From Rhizobium etli CFN 42 (GTDB lineage Bacteria > Pseudomonadota > Alphaproteobacteria > Rhizobiales > Rhizobiaceae): a stretch of 64,000 nt of DNA. The stretch lies in the NCBI RefSeq assembly GCF_000092045.1, contig NC_007761.1, positions 1,367,001 through 1,431,000 of the forward strand, written 5' to 3'. Below are positions 17,653 to 26,819 of this stretch, one piece after another. The notes beneath the pieces are model-generated. The model was not told where the DNA came from. It did not search any database and saw only the letters and a program-made list of their open reading frames with translations. A program made the translations under genes and the position numbers. Numbering within the stretch: position 1 is the stretch's first letter; every line of letters starts with the position of its first letter.

Positions 17653-19155
17653 CTATTGGAAAGCCGTCTCGAAGAAGCTGCGCAGCTTGCGCGAATGCAG
17701 GGCTTCCTTCGGCATGGCGGCCAGCTTCTGCACGGCGCGGATGCCGATCTGCAAATGCTGGTTGACCTGTGTGCGGTAGAAGGCCGTCGCCATGCCAGGC
17801 AGCTTCAACTCGCCGTGCAGCGGCTTGTCGGAGACGCAGAGCAGCGTGCCGTAAGGCACGCGGAAGCGGAAGCCGTTGGCGGCGATCGTGGCCGATTCCA
17901 TGTCGAGCGCGATGGCGCGCGCCTGCGACAGCCGCTTCACCGGCCCGAGCTGGTCGCGCAGTTCCCAGTTGCGGTTGTCGATCGTCCCGACGGTGCCGGT
18001 GCGCATGATGCGCTTCAGTTCGAAGCCCTCGTAGCCGGTGATTTCGGCGACGGCTGCCTCCAGCGCCACCTGCACTTCGGCGAGCGCCGGGATCGGCACC
18101 CAGACCGGAAGGTCGTCATCGAGAACATGGTCCTCGCGCATATAGGCATGGGCAAGCACATAATCGCCGAGCCGCTGGCTGTTGCGCAGGCCGGCGCAGT
18201 GGCCGAGCATCAGCCAGGCATGCGGGCGCAGGACGGCGACGTGGTCGGTGATCGTCTTGGCGTTGGAAGGGCCGACGCCGATATTGATCATGGTGATCCC
18301 GGCATGGCCCTTCTTCTTCAGGTGATAGGCCGGCATCTGCGGCAGGCGGGCAAGGGTCGCATCCGTTTCCGGCACGCTCGAGCCGGGCAGGGTGACGATA
18401 TTGCCGGGCTCGACGAAGGCGGTGTAGCCGTCGCCGCCCTCCGCCATCAGCTTGCGCGCCCAGCTGCAGAATTCATCGATATAGAACTGGTAGTTCGTAA
18501 ACAGCACGAAGTTCTGGAAATGCTCGGCATGCGTCGCCGTATAATGCGACAGTCGGGCGAGCGAGTAATCGATCCGCTGCGCGGTGAATGGGGCAAGCGG
18601 CGAGGGTTCTCCTGGCGGCGGGATATATTCGCCGTTGGCGATCTCGTCGTCGGTGGTGTTGAGGTCGGGTGTATCGAAGATATCGCGCATTGGAACGTCG
18701 ACGAAGGCTGAGGCCGATGCTTCCACATGCGCGCCCTCGCCGAAGGCGAAGTGCAGCGGGATCGGCGTCGACGATTCCGAGACGACGATCGGAACATTGT
18801 GGCTCCTTATCAAAAGCGACAGCTGCTCCTTGAGGTAATGCTTGAAGAGCTTCGGCCGGGTGACCGTCGTCGTGTAGATGCCGGGCGCCGTGACATGGCC
18901 GTAGGAGAGGCGCGAATCGACATGGCCGAAGCTCGTCGTCTCGATGCTGACCTGCGGATAGAAGGCGCGGTAGCGCGAGGCGATCGGAGCGCCTTGGGCA
19001 AGGTCTGTGAAGGTTTGGATCAGGAACGCCGTATTGCGTTCGTAAAGTGCTGTCAGCGTCTCGACGGCCTTGGCCGGATCATCGAAACTCTCGGGCTGAA
19101 AAGGGGGCGGAGAGGAAATGTCGAGGGGCGACAGAGGGGAGATTCGTTTGTTCAT
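17653..19155 (-). CDS. amn: AMP nucleosidase
   Basis: This 500-residue protein matches full-length AMP nucleosidase: an N-terminal AMP-binding regulatory domain (about 1-190) and a C-terminal phosphorylase-fold domain with MINIGVGPSNAKTITDHVAVLRPHAWLMLGHC-type sequence, split here as MINIGVGPSN and WLMLGHCAGLR, and ALDMESATIAANGFR near the end. It hydrolyses AMP to adenine and ribose 5-phosphate, adjusting the adenylate pool. No Shine-Dalgarno is seen before the ATG; a TATAAT lies five bases upstream, so the mRNA is probably leaderless. Confidence 0.96.
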   Translation of the reverse strand: MNKRISPLSPLDISSPPPFQPESFDDPAKAVETLTALYERNTAFLIQTFTDLAQGAPIASRYRAFYPQVSIETTSFGHVDSRLSYGHVTAPGIYTTTVTRPKLFKHYLKEQLSLLIRSHNVPIVVSESSTPIPLHFAFGEGAHVEASASAFVDVPMRDIFDTPDLNTTDDEIANGEYIPPPGEPSPLAPFTAQRIDYSLARLSHYTATHAEHFQNFVLFTNYQFYIDEFCSWARKLMAEGGDGYTAFVEPGNIVTLPGSSVPETDATLARLPQMPAYHLKKKGHAGITMINIGVGPSNAKTITDHVAVLRPHAWLMLGHCAGLRNSQRLGDYVLAHAYMREDHVLDDDLPVWVPIPALAEVQVALEAAVAEITGYEGFELKRIMRTGTVGTIDNRNWELRDQLGPVKRLSQARAIALDMESATIAANGFRFRVPYGTLLCVSDKPLHGELKLPGMATAFYRTQVNQHLQIGIRAVQKLAAMPKEALHSRKLRSFFETAFQ

Positions 19156-21398: not shown

Positions 21399-22511
21399 TC
21401 AGGCGAGCGTCTTCAGGACCTGCGGCAGCGCTTGCTCGAACAGCGCCATCTCAGCCTCAGGCCCGACGCTGACGCGGATGCAGCGATTGAGCGGCGCAAC
21501 ACCCGGCATGCGGATGAAGACGCCGTGTTCCATCAGGCCATCGACGATCGCCCGCGCATGGGCGCCGTCGCGGCCGGTATCGATCGCCACGAAATTGGTC
21601 GCCGAGGGCAGCGGCTCAAGACCGTTTGCCCGGGCGATGCGGCCGATCCGATCCCGTGCTGCATGGATTTTCCCGACCACATCGGCGAGATAGGCTTGAT
21701 CCTTGAGCGCGGCCAGCGCTGCGGCCGTCGCCAGCCGGTTCATGCCGAAATGATTGCGGATCTTGTCGAAGGCCTGTGCCGTGCCTGAGGTCGAGATCAC
21801 ATAGCCGGTGCGTGAGCCGGCAAGCCCGTAGGCCTTGGAAAAGGTGCGGGTGCGCACGATGTTCGGCAGATCGATGAGCGAAGCGATCGACGGCAGCGAA
21901 TTTGCCGGCCCCGTTTCGCTATAGGCTTCGTCCAGCACCATCATCGTGGTCTCGGGCAGCGCCCGGGCGAAAGCGACGATGCTGTCGGCGTCCCACCAGC
22001 TTCCCATCGGATTGTCGGGATTGGCGAAATAAACGAGCGGCGCATTCTCGCGTCTGACGGCCTCGAGCAGCCCGTCGAGATTCTCGCGATCGTTCACATA
22101 GGGCACGGTGACCAGTCGGCCGCCGAAGCCGGCGACATGGAAATTGAAGGTGGGATAGGCGCCGAGCGAGGTGACCACAGGTGCGCCGGCTTCGATCACC
22201 AGCCGGACGATTTGGCCGAGCAACTCGTCGATGCCGCCGCCGATGGCGATATTGGTGGGGGAGATGCCGAGATGGATGCCGAGCGCTTCCCTCAGCGAAA
22301 AATTTTCCGGATCGTTGTATTTCCAGATATTGCCGGCCTCGTCGCGCATGGCCGCAAGCACGGAAGGCGCCGGGCCGAAGCCGTTCTCATTCGCGCCGAT
22401 GCGTGCCAAGACAGCAAGTCCGCGTTGACGCTCGATCGCCTCAGGGCCGACGAAGGGAACTGTGGAGGGCAGGGCGCCGATGAGAGGCGTGAAGCGCGAA
22501 AAGGCGGACAT
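21399..22511 (-). CDS. HisC-type PLP aminotransferase
   Basis: The 370-residue fold-type I aminotransferase resembles histidinol-phosphate aminotransferase. It has the N-terminal IGANENGFGPAPSV, ANPDNPMGSWW (Asn-Pro cofactor loop), D195 in MVLDEAYSE, and K226 in TRTFSKAYGLAGSRTGY. Histidine genes are absent nearby, so another substrate (for example aromatic amino acids) is possible. The ATG at 22511 is chosen over 22577 by homology to family N-termini. Before IS10 insertion the PilZ gene ended 72 bp upstream on the same strand. Confidence 0.88.
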   Translation of the reverse strand: MSAFSRFTPLIGALPSTVPFVGPEAIERQRGLAVLARIGANENGFGPAPSVLAAMRDEAGNIWKYNDPENFSLREALGIHLGISPTNIAIGGGIDELLGQIVRLVIEAGAPVVTSLGAYPTFNFHVAGFGGRLVTVPYVNDRENLDGLLEAVRRENAPLVYFANPDNPMGSWWDADSIVAFARALPETTMMVLDEAYSETGPANSLPSIASLIDLPNIVRTRTFSKAYGLAGSRTGYVISTSGTAQAFDKIRNHFGMNRLATAAALAALKDQAYLADVVGKIHAARDRIGRIARANGLEPLPSATNFVAIDTGRDGAHARAIVDGLMEHGVFIRMPGVAPLNRCIRVSVGPEAEMALFEQALPQVLKTLA

Positions 22512-22583
22512 GCGAAGGCAATTTCCCGGACATGTTGACGGTTGGCGCAACAATAGGCCGGGGTACGGCCAAGGCAAGCAAGA

Positions 22584-22641
22584 TTATTTCGACAAGCCCA
22601 TAGGCGACGCTTGCGGGCGGAATATCGGTGCACGCCGTGCA
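22584..22641 (-). pseudogene. Original 3' end of the PilZ gene, cut off by IS10
   Basis: If IS10 and one copy of the 9-bp duplication are removed, the PilZ reading frame runs on from Ala-Arg-Arg into APIFRPQASPMGLSK and stops at TAA (22584-22586). These 15 codons are separated from the rest of the gene by IS10. Confidence 0.75.
22633..22641. repeat. 9-bp target-site duplication of IS10, left copy
   Basis: CGCCGTGCA directly precedes the IS10 end CTGAGAGATCC and is repeated exactly at 23971-23979. IS10 makes 9-bp duplications. Confidence 0.95.
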
Positions 22642-23970
22642 CTGAGAGATCCCCTCATAATTTCCCCAAAGCGTAACCATGTGTGAATAAATTTTGAGCT
22701 AGTAGGGTTGCAGCCACGAGTAAGTCTTCCCTTGTTATTGTGTAGCCAGAATGCCGCAAAACTTCCATGCCTAAGCGAACTGTTGAGAGTACGTTTCGAT
22801 TTCTGACTGTGTTAGCCTGGAAGTGCTTGTCCCAACCTTGTTTCTGAGCATGAACGCCCGCAAGCCAACATGTTAGTTGAAGCATCAGGGCGATTAGCAG
22901 CATGATATCAAAACGCTCTGAGCTGCTCGTTCGGCTATGGCGTAGGCCTAGTCCGTAGGCAGGACTTTTCAAGTCTCGGAAGGTTTCTTCAATCTGCATT
23001 CGCTTCGAATAGATATTAACAAGTTGTTTGGGTGTTCGAATTTCAACAGGTAAGTTAGTTGCTAGAATCCATGGCTCCTTTGCCGACGCTGAGTAGATTT
23101 TAGGTGACGGGTGGTGACAATGAGTCCGTGTCGAGCGCTGATTTTTTCGGCCTTTAGAGCGAGATTTATACAATAGAATTTGGCATGAGATTGGATTGCT
23201 TTTAGTCAGCCTCTTATAGCCTAAAGTCTTTGAGTGACTAGATGACATATCATGTAAGTTGCTGATAGGTTTCCAGTTTTCCGCTCCTAGGTCTGCATAT
23301 TGTACTTTTCCTCTTACTCGACTTAACCAGTACCAACCCAGCTTCTCAACGGATTTATACCATGGCACTTTAAAGCCAGCATCACTGACAATGAGCGGTG
23401 TGGTGTTACTCGGTAGAATGCTCGCAAGGTCGGCTAGAAATTGGTCATGAGCTTTCTTTGAACATTGCTCTGAAAGCGGGAACGCTTTCTCATAAAGAGT
23501 AACAGAACGACCGTGTAGTGCGACTGAAGCTCGCAATACCATAAGCCGTTTTTGCTCACGGATATCAGACCAGTCAACAAGTACAATGGGCATCGTATTG
23601 CCCGAACAGATAAAGCTAGCATGCCAACGGTATACAGCGAGTCGCTCTTTGTGGAGGTGACGATTACCTAACAATCGGTCGATTCGTTTGATGTTATGTT
23701 TTGTTCTCGCTTTGGTTGGCAGGTTACGGCCAAGTTCGGTAAGAGTGAGAGTTTTACAGTCAAGTAAGGCGTGGCAAGCCAACGTTAAGCTGTTGAGTCG
23801 TTTTAAGTGTAATTCGGGGCAGAATTGGTAAAGAGAGTCGTGTAAAATATCGAGTTCGCACATTTTGTTGTCTGATTATTGATTTTTGGCGAAACCATTT
23901 GATCATATGACAAGATGTGTATCTACCTTAACTTAATGATTTTGATAAAAATCATTAGGGGATTCATCAG
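22642..23970 (-). mobile_element. Complete IS10 (Tn10 right-end type) insertion sequence
   Basis: The element is exactly 1329 bp, the length of IS10. Its ends are CTGAGAGATCCCCTCATAAT at 22642 (inside end) and, on the minus strand, CTGATGAATCCCCTAATGAT from 23970 (outside end). A perfect 9-bp duplication flanks it and the transposase is intact. Base composition is much more AT-rich than the host DNA. IS10 is an enterobacterial element, common in E. coli laboratory strains. Confidence 0.98.
22655..23863 (-). CDS. IS10 transposase (IS4 family)
   Basis: The 402-residue product is full length. The catalytic DDE triad falls exactly at the positions known for Tn10 transposase: D97 (VLVDWSD), D161 (IVSDAGF) and E292 (MQIEETFRDL, with the Y-(2)-R-(3)-E-(6)-K signature of the IS4 family). 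It performs cut-and-paste transposition. Codon use (many AAA, TTA, AAT codons) is unlike the neighbours, as expected for a foreign element. Confidence 0.98.
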   Translation of the reverse strand: MCELDILHDSLYQFCPELHLKRLNSLTLACHALLDCKTLTLTELGRNLPTKARTKHNIKRIDRLLGNRHLHKERLAVYRWHASFICSGNTMPIVLVDWSDIREQKRLMVLRASVALHGRSVTLYEKAFPLSEQCSKKAHDQFLADLASILPSNTTPLIVSDAGFKVPWYKSVEKLGWYWLSRVRGKVQYADLGAENWKPISNLHDMSSSHSKTLGYKRLTKSNPISCQILLYKSRSKGRKNQRSTRTHCHHPSPKIYSASAKEPWILATNLPVEIRTPKQLVNIYSKRMQIEETFRDLKSPAYGLGLRHSRTSSSERFDIMLLIALMLQLTCWLAGVHAQKQGWDKHFQANTVRNRNVLSTVRLGMEVLRHSGYTITREDLLVAATLLAQNLFTHGYALGKL

Positions 23971-24350
23971 CGCCGTGCATCGATCGCTTCCATGTTGCCG
24001 ACAAGGAAATCTGTGCGCACTACGCGGCGCAGGACCTCGGGATCCATCAGGTTGATGAACCGCACGCCGATGCGTTCCTTGTGACGGTAGACCTCGGCAC
24101 ACCCGATCCGATAGGCGAGGCCGAGAATGTTGAGATAATAATGCTTCGGCAGACCGGCAGTGGTCGACACGATGAAGGTCGCACCGCCTTGCGAGATATC
24201 GATGATCTCGGCGCTTCGCATCGAAACGCCCGTGAGGCACGGCCGGACGGCCACGATGCGGGCGGGGCGCTTGACGTGGAACTCTTCCCAGCGCAGGTCG
24301 TAAATGGCGGATTTGACCGTGGCAAGGTGTGTGGCGCGGAGCATAGTCAT
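23967..24350 (-). CDS. PilZ-domain protein with C-terminus replaced by IS10 insertion
   Basis: The 127-residue product has PilZ features: KRPAR in the N-terminal part (RxxxR-like) and IIDISQGGATFIVS (the D/N-x-S-x-x-G strand), so c-di-GMP binding is plausible. The stop TGA comes from the IS10 end (CTGATG); the undisturbed gene coded 15 more residues (see 22584-22641). The PilZ core is intact and the truncated protein may still work. The ATG at 24350 follows GGAGAATGTAAG. A second PilZ-like protein with similar C-terminal sequence lies at 26487-26819. Confidence 0.87.
   Translation of the reverse strand: MTMLRATHLATVKSAIYDLRWEEFHVKRPARIVAVRPCLTGVSMRSAEIIDISQGGATFIVSTTAGLPKHYYLNILGLAYRIGCAEVYRHKERIGVRFINLMDPEVLRRVVRTDFLVGNMEAIDARR
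23971..23979. repeat. 9-bp target-site duplication of IS10, right copy
   Basis: CGCCGTGCA follows the outside end of IS10 and equals the copy at 22633-22641. Confidence 0.95.
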
Positions 24351-24646: not shown

Positions 24647-24829
24647 ATGTCGACGACAGCGCTTGCACAGATCGCCGCGGCGGCGAAGGACGCGAAACAG
24701 CGAGGCCTGGAAACTGGATTGCCACTCCAATCGATTTCCGGCGCAATTTCTCGAACTCTTTCAACGGCCGGACGTTCTGTCTTGATCGATGAAGCATGGC
24801 GCGCTTCGATGACGACAGCGAGGAGTTGA
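24647..24829 (+). CDS. Possible small protein upstream of the Host_attach gene
   Basis: A 60-codon frame (Ala-rich start MSTTALAQIAAAAKDAKQRG) ends in TGA two bases before the ATG of the next gene, whose SD (GAGGAG) lies inside its last codons. The tight spacing suggests an operon. The composition is plausible for a soluble helical protein, but no family is recognised and no clear SD precedes the ATG. Confidence 0.35.
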   Translation: MSTTALAQIAAAAKDAKQRGLETGLPLQSISGAISRTLSTAGRSVLIDEAWRASMTTARS

Positions 24830-24831
24830 AG

Positions 24832-25278
24832 ATGACCGACGTCAGAATCCCCCGGAAATCATGGGTCGTAGTCTGCAATGGAGCCAAGGCCCTGATCATG
24901 CAGAATGCCGGCGATGCCCAACTGATGAACCTCAAGGTGCTGGAAACCCTGACGCAGCCGAACGAGCCCGATCGCGAGGTCGGCGCCGACAAGCCCGGCC
25001 GTAGCCATGCCGCCGATGGGGTCAGCCGCAGCGCTGTCGAAGAGACCAGCTGGCAGGAGCAAGCTGAAGCGCAATTTCTGAAACATGTGGCGGAACGGAT
25101 GGACGAGTTGATGCAGGCAAAGGATGCCCACCGCATCGTGCTCATCGCGCCGCCGAAGGCGCTAGGAACCCTGCGTCCGGCGCTCAGTGCCGAGACGCAG
25201 GCGGCGATATCGACAGAATTGGCGAAAGACTATACCAACCTGCCGGTCGACGAGATCGAGCGGCATCTCGCCGCGTGA
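24832..25278 (+). CDS. Host_attach (AtsE-like) family protein
   Basis: The 148-residue protein matches the family named for proteins required for attachment to host cells: an N-terminal strand RKSWVVVCNGAKALIMQNAG, a linker with DREVGADKPGRS and ETSWQEQAEAQFLKHVAERM, then RIVLIAPPKALGTLRPALS and a final DLTNLPVDEIERHL-like end. The ATG at 24832 has GAGGAG ten bases upstream, better than 24796. In Agrobacterium the family is linked to plant-surface attachment; the molecular role is not known. Confidence 0.88.
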   Translation: MTDVRIPRKSWVVVCNGAKALIMQNAGDAQLMNLKVLETLTQPNEPDREVGADKPGRSHAADGVSRSAVEETSWQEQAEAQFLKHVAERMDELMQAKDAHRIVLIAPPKALGTLRPALSAETQAAISTELAKDYTNLPVDEIERHLAA

Positions 25279-26287: not shown

Positions 26288-26536
26288 ATGCTTCTCAACT
26301 GGGTAGTTCTCTTCAACGAAGTCGCGTCCCGCAATTGCCGGATGCGCCGCGATCCCATGGCCGATCCGCTCGATGGCCCGGAATGGCGCGGGCTTCACTG
26401 GATCATATCGATCACAGCTCATCTCTCCGCAAGAAGAGGCGAGACGAGGAGGCCGCGCCGCGATCGGGCGGTGATCGGAAGACGCCTCAGGTTTCGAAGC
26501 TCAGTCGCAGCACGTGGTGCAGGAATTCCGGATTGA
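26288..26536 (+). CDS. Possible small hypothetical protein
   Basis: An 82-codon frame starts eight bases after a strong GGAGG and is divergent from the LysR gene. The N-terminal third (MLLNWVVLFNEVASRNCRMR, then RDPMADPLDGPEW) looks protein-like, while the rest is Arg-rich and runs antisense into the end of the PilZ-like gene. No family is recognised. A frameshifted or decayed gene is possible. Confidence 0.3.
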   Translation: MLLNWVVLFNEVASRNCRMRRDPMADPLDGPEWRGLHWIISITAHLSARRGETRRPRRDRAVIGRRLRFRSSVAARGAGIPD

Positions 26537-26819
26537 GCAGCATGTTGAAGCCGATCGTCACCAGTTCGTCTTCGCGCTTGACCAAGGTGGCGCCGATTTC
26601 GTCATGGATGCCAAGTATCTCGAGAAAGAAATGACTCGGCATCTCCAGGCTCGGACTGACTTCGAGCACGGCGCCGGCAAGTGTGATCGTGCGGATCAGG
26701 CAACGTACCTGCGTACCGGTGCTGAGGTGGTGGCCGACGAAGATGATATTGCCCGGCCTGTCGAGATTGAATTCCCGGTAAGCACGTTCCGGCTTGGGGT
26801 GTTCTGAGTCGAGGTGCAT
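26487..26819 (-). CDS. PilZ-like domain protein, degenerate c-di-GMP motif
   Basis: The 110-residue product aligns by eye with the PilZ protein at 23967-24350: TITLAGAVLEVSPSLEMPSHFFLEILGI matches IDISQGGATFIVSTTAGLPKHYYLNILGL segment by segment (shown here only in key residues G-A, P-H, L-ILG), and both end with an F-N/M-L-(N/D)PE pattern. The DxSxxG strand is changed to T-x-A-G and no RxxxR is clear, so c-di-GMP binding may be lost. It could act by protein contact or be a diverged sensor. Confidence 0.68.
   Translation of the reverse strand: MHLDSEHPKPERAYREFNLDRPGNIIFVGHHLSTGTQVRCLIRTITLAGAVLEVSPSLEMPSHFFLEILGIHDEIGATLVKREDELVTIGFNMLLNPEFLHHVLRLSFET

Follow-up and report, generated by a model that had tools for sequence, protein, structure and literature searches.

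How an enterobacterial IS10 came to stand in the finished chromosome of Rhizobium etli CFN42, and whether it was inserted into the living strain or into a cloned fragment of its DNA, is the question raised by this locus. We have analysed a stretch of 64,000 nucleotides of contig NC_007761.1, from 1,367,001 to 1,431,000 (the window; all other positions in it are counted from its first letter), in which the element and its immediate neighbours are arranged as follows.

21399..22577, minus strand: aminotransferase gene (PF00155, NF006014), which flanks the insertion opposite the PilZ-like gene and is not disrupted
22633..22641, no strand assigned: left copy of the 9-bp target duplication, CGCCGTGCA, identified from sequence
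22642..23970, minus strand: IS10, 1329 bp, with the transposase reading right to left and 0 differences to laboratory E. coli copies
22655..23863, minus strand: IS10 transposase, 402 aa, with D97, D161 and E292 (PF01609, NF033591)
23967..24350, minus strand: PilZ-like gene interrupted shortly before its 3' end, with the stop codon (23967-23969) inside IS10
23971..23979, no strand assigned: right copy of the 9-bp target duplication, CGCCGTGCA, identified from sequence

The element belongs to IS10 by its length of 1329 bp and by its characteristic ends, identical to those of three 1329-bp laboratory copies. The end at 22642 is CTGAGAGATCCCC, presumably the inside end, and that at 23970 is CTGATGAATCCCC, presumably the outside end; the terminal 25 bases form imperfect inverted repeats with 17 of 25 positions identical. 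GATC occurs at element positions 7 and 1260, the latter 67-70 bases from the outside end, and both sites lie where we take the Dam sites of IS10 to be, namely in the inside end and 67-70 bases from the outside end. The G+C content of the element is 43.9%, against 59.7% and 60.9% on its two sides, and each of the eight lowest-GC stretches among the 1329-base samples taken across the window overlaps with it. The 9-mers that flank it are identical, and with the base composition of the window two given 9-mers would match by chance with p of about 5.4e-6. The same 9-mer occurs once more in the window, on the plus strand at 17811, with no bearing on the insertion. Of the six specified bases of the IS10 target consensus, NGCTNAGCN, four match. 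The transposase reading frame is free of internal stops and is predicted to encode a complete DDE enzyme with all three catalytic residues in place; the profile matches are to Pfam DDE_Tnp_1 (PF01609; E 1.5e-24) and NCBIfam transpos_IS4_2 (NF033591; E 6.4e-121). The preliminary description had reported, at 22633-23979, a 1329-bp IS10 with both ends, a perfect 9-bp duplication and an intact DDE transposase of this kind, and in all three respects it was borne out. The IS10 coordinates of strain ER2796 likewise correspond to 1329 bp (PMC4444293).

Nine IS10 copies in all were aligned against the window copy. Those of DH10B (NC_010473.1), S17-1 (NZ_CP040667.1) and the F' plasmid of XL1-Blue (NZ_CP132549.1) differ from it at none of the 1329 bases, but stand in another host genome; all three records annotate the element as 'IS4-like element ISVsa5 family transposase'. 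The XL1-Blue F' copy has a perfect 9-bp duplication, as has that in the window, whereas in DH10B and S17-1 the two 9-bp flanks are unequal. Other copies differ from that of the window at 2 sites (R621a), 3 (Typhi pHCM1), 6 (13C1079T), 7 (TUM23331), 10 (PT62) and 14 (CUVET24-CCU25). The Tn10 arms of R100 (NC_002134.1; 8133-9461 and 15951-17279) represent the same element at the same length; the gltS-side arm has six differences from the window copy, at sites 30-81, and the tetD-side arm nine, at sites 427-1306, with no overlap between the two sets. Judged by this distribution, the laboratory haplotype resembles either a mosaic formed from both R100 arms or their common ancestor.

A megablast search of 20,395 E. 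coli records found 1413 in which at least 80% of IS10 is covered at one place. Perfect copies (100.0%, 2455 bits each) were present in 45 records, all among the best 60 of the 1413. By name or label 37 of them are laboratory strains, including DH10B, DH5alpha, EPI300, JM109, XL1-Blue F', S17-1, BL21 derivatives and NEB strains; the names are taken by us to denote laboratory strains. Five further records (CM2, CM13, CM19, CM56 and CM93) have no laboratory label ('not applicable' or '-') and carry the exact copy in opgB, the same place as in DH10B; CM5, their sister by series name, is labelled laboratory and also has its copy in opgB. The remaining three, USML2, BH212 and TSW4848-W1, carry the copy at laboratory-like Tn10/IS10 sites. 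The junction of srlD and IS10 in USML2 is the same as that of S17-1 at 60 of 60 bases, which suggests that this 'environmental' genome is that of a laboratory K-12 derivative; the strain is recorded as an oil-palm inner leaf isolate. In BH212 the tetD-side arm of Tn10 is exactly the laboratory haplotype and stands beside a broken tyrA, and this Tn10 is taken to be a laboratory marker. The TSW4848-W1 copy lies in opgB, in a record whose label names a lake strain as the source.

The boundary between laboratory and other strains is not a sharp one for this haplotype. The two records that follow the 45 exact ones, Br_112_kylling and E06, are at 99.9% and are not labelled laboratory, and the chicken isolate CS18F, also within the best 60 of the 1413, is at 99.8%; a few wild isolates are one or two bases away from the laboratory sequence. 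Conversely, the best copy is of another haplotype in two laboratory-labelled strains, BM28 (in lysU, 99.6%) and TUM23331 ('laboratory developed', 99.5%). Of 60 rows taken at even intervals down the full ranking, two were full-length and exact and the other full-length rows did not exceed 99.5%; partial copies further down reached 99.7-100% over shorter lengths.

IS10 matches were found in 2313 records of a plasmid collection, 1813 of these predicted to be conjugative. The best-ranked list contained three exact, undivided copies, on two F' plasmids of laboratory strains and on the Klebsiella plasmid pRJ119-NDM1; a fourth exact match was divided into two pieces, with IS903B annotated under it. 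On pRJ119-NDM1 the laboratory-haplotype IS10 lies between stretches annotated as NDM beta-lactamase and has a perfect 9-bp duplication, and to judge from its sequence this insertion may have arisen in laboratory E. coli. One of 50,697 phage records, Enterobacteria phage CL707, contained a copy, at 99.2% over 99% of the length.

The preliminary description had proposed a search of the genome for further copies and a comparison with close relatives, and both are consistent with a single, recent insertion. In the genome of CFN42 (6,530,228 bases in 7 contigs, that of the window having 4,381,608 bases) the IS10 of the window is the sole copy. A published CFN42 chromosome position agrees with the numbering of this contig: PMC8150021 gives a T>C change at 2848592 in RHE_CH02735, a sorbosone dehydrogenase gene, and base 2848592 of the contig is T, within a frame that has a glucose/sorbosone dehydrogenase domain. 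Among the 148 genomes of the genus that were searched, its own included, none of the 147 others contains IS10, and in a sample of 397 genomes of the order, again including its own, two others match, but over no more than 32 and 28 bases.

The insertion site itself was compared by means of an empty-site query of 600 bases, in which both flanks were joined with one copy of the duplication. All 148 genomes of the genus match this query in some form; the 35 best-scoring relatives align with it in a single piece and nearly end to end, and the genome of CFN42 aligns in two pieces with the 1329 bases of IS10 between them. Some more distant or diverged relatives also align in two pieces, with other sequence between (e.g., G007, G018 and G100). 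Named loci were fetched by the neighbouring protein, and for the best 80 of 103 an alignment that started at or before base 285 and ended at or after base 315 of the query was counted as crossing the junction. This was the case in 71 of the 80, seven of which (L009, L016, L017, L027, L030, L032 and L034) align only from 15-22 bases outside the duplication; the nine loci not aligned across it are L039, L074, L077-L080, L082, L084 and L085. All of the best 30 loci taken from the 147 other genomes align across the site (30/30). The named and the genome-derived sets probably share species, and no IS10 match was found in any of the 80 and 30 loci fetched. Most of the relatives examined show the site without IS10.

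The element is very likely of laboratory E. coli origin, and its recent arrival from such a source, as proposed in the preliminary description, is upheld by the exact laboratory haplotype, by the single copy and by the empty site at most related loci. We can give next to no credence to a resident rhizobial element of the IS4 family that resembles IS10: the transposase does fall in the IS4-family model, but 100% DNA identity to the E. coli copies over 1329 bases refutes this reading, the G+C content is 16 points under that of the surroundings, and the longest match in the other 396 genomes of the order sample is 32 bases. Natural transfer from an enteric bacterium to CFN42 in soil or plant, by which IS10 would be truly present in the living strain, is very improbable. 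The abundance of IS10 on conjugative enteric plasmids, as predicted for 1813 of the matched records, and the 99.8-99.9% copies among listed isolates without a laboratory label would favour such a transfer, yet the haplotype is exactly the laboratory one, of the three undivided exact plasmid copies in the best-ranked list from the 2313 records two belong to laboratory F' plasmids, and IS10 is missing from the 147 other genomes of the genus that were searched. Were it true, it would show that a rhizobial chromosome is open to transposition of this enterobacterial element under non-laboratory conditions. The entry of the element within Tn10, which the preliminary description had also considered, is not supported: a search of the Rhizobium genome with the tetR-tetA-tetC-tetD region of R100 returned nothing and there is no second IS10, and both Tn10 delivery and a composite Tn10 are rejected.

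We favour an event in the sequencing project over one in the living strain, and infer this step as follows. IS10 of a laboratory E. coli would have moved into a piece of the CFN42 chromosome that was being propagated as a clone in E. coli, its ordinary cut-and-paste transposition would have produced the 9-bp duplication, and the altered clone would then have been built into the finished sequence. That IS10 jumped into a sequencing clone of CFN42 which entered the finished genome in this way is, in our judgement, probable; such a jump accounts at once for the laboratory haplotype, for the presence of one copy and for the perfect 9-bp duplication. The element is an ordinary and already known one, and the kind of event is known too. 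Several considerations count against an artefact. A redundant shotgun would normally outvote a single altered clone, so the region must have rested on one clone or its descendants; near-identical copies occur in isolates without a laboratory label, and two laboratory-labelled strains have another haplotype as their best match; and the sequence fits a jump in a living laboratory strain equally well. In the latter case the insertion would be real in the sequenced culture, IS10 having arrived with a plasmid that an E. coli donor (e.g., S17-1) had passed on by mobilisation, or with another laboratory vector, and having jumped once into the chromosome; this we regard as possible but rather unlikely. 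The S17-1 donor carries exactly the IS10 of the window, the 9-bp duplication indicates true transposition, although it is expected in a clone as well, and finished genomes are usually correct. Against it stands, apart from the absence of the tet region, that IS1, IS186, IS911, IS30 and IS5 had no match in the Rhizobium genome. The sole match among the K-12 IS queries was at 66%, in the nhaA part of the query; that both this homologue and IS10 were recovered demonstrates the efficacy of such searches here. With none of the further K-12 elements tested being present, a wider carry-over from E. coli is not indicated, and this counts against a clone artefact as well. Dam methylation, which rhizobia are not known to possess, holds IS10 down, yet the genome of CFN42 has a single copy. 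The argument is weak, because 18 places with IS10 were counted in DH5alpha and at least 40 in Br_112_kylling, in spite of at least 40 in ET12567, which is presumably dam-deficient.

The movement of IS10 from a cloning host into foreign DNA, as in the favoured reading, has been described before for raw sequencing reads (PMC2891674) and for plasmids (PMC4021028), in the latter case as IS10 insertion into plasmids in DH5alpha; the copy in the window differs from both in that it lies in a finished reference chromosome. According to PMC2891674, among 295 Sanger shotgun projects 166 had reads that matched E. coli IS and 129 had none, and after filtering, in which organisms with an IS of their own were left out, 109 host-IS reads from 14 data sets were retained. 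IS10 was the commonest, with 68 of the 109 reads against 30 for IS1, and is stated there to have reached K-12 strains through the use of Tn10. Ordinary transposition rates were said to predict only about one interrupted gene per 100 projects, a figure that counts against the artefact reading, as does the restriction of the survey to raw reads; the excess observed was ascribed to selection in the clone (PMC2891674).

CFN42 serves as a reference for bean-nodulating rhizobia (e.g., PMC8150021 and PMC4167512). In the two papers retrieved for IS10 together with R. etli and CFN42, the text matches to 'IS10' were to IS1006 or IS1086, and the titles and opening lines of abstracts surveyed more widely contained no statement on the insertion in the window. 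Strain CE3 has been sequenced and mapped to CFN42, with no mention of the insertion site in the excerpted main text (PMC8150021), CE3 RNA reads have been mapped in a study whose main text does not contain the terms transposase, insertion sequence or IS10 (PMC4167512), and Mim1 has been compared with CFN42, again without naming the insertion in the excerpted text (PMC4125696). Should the insertion prove to be an artefact, the reference holds 1338 extra bases and gives a conserved PilZ-like gene an incorrect 3' end; the transposase would be miscounted as a rhizobial IS in surveys, and reads mapped to the CFN42 reference would show a false deletion at the insertion site. As an artefact is the most likely explanation, the site should not be taken as natural biology.

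The gene at the right-hand end of the element has lost its own terminus in the sequence as deposited. The PilZ-like frame now has 127 codons, compared with 142 when uninterrupted, its last 15 codons being replaced by a stop supplied by IS10; if the insertion were real, the protein would lose its last 15 residues. In all 30 named loci compared (L006-L035 of the 80) the frame continues past residue 127, to 133-144 aa. Many close relatives are called 'PilZ domain-containing' in their source records, and the 127-aa form has no Pfam or NCBIfam match at E 0.001. A protein search with the uninterrupted frame gave 172 matches, the best of them a 143-aa relative with 99% identity; among the 120 listed of these, no match was attributable to a second CFN42 assembly. 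A further protein of 110 aa, encoded on the minus strand at 26487-26819, resembles by eye the PilZ-like protein of 23967-24350 and has no Pfam or NCBIfam match at E 0.001. Close to the insertion site, at 24796-25278 on the plus strand, lies a gene for a host-attachment/release-factor-like protein (baeRF_family12, Host_attach).
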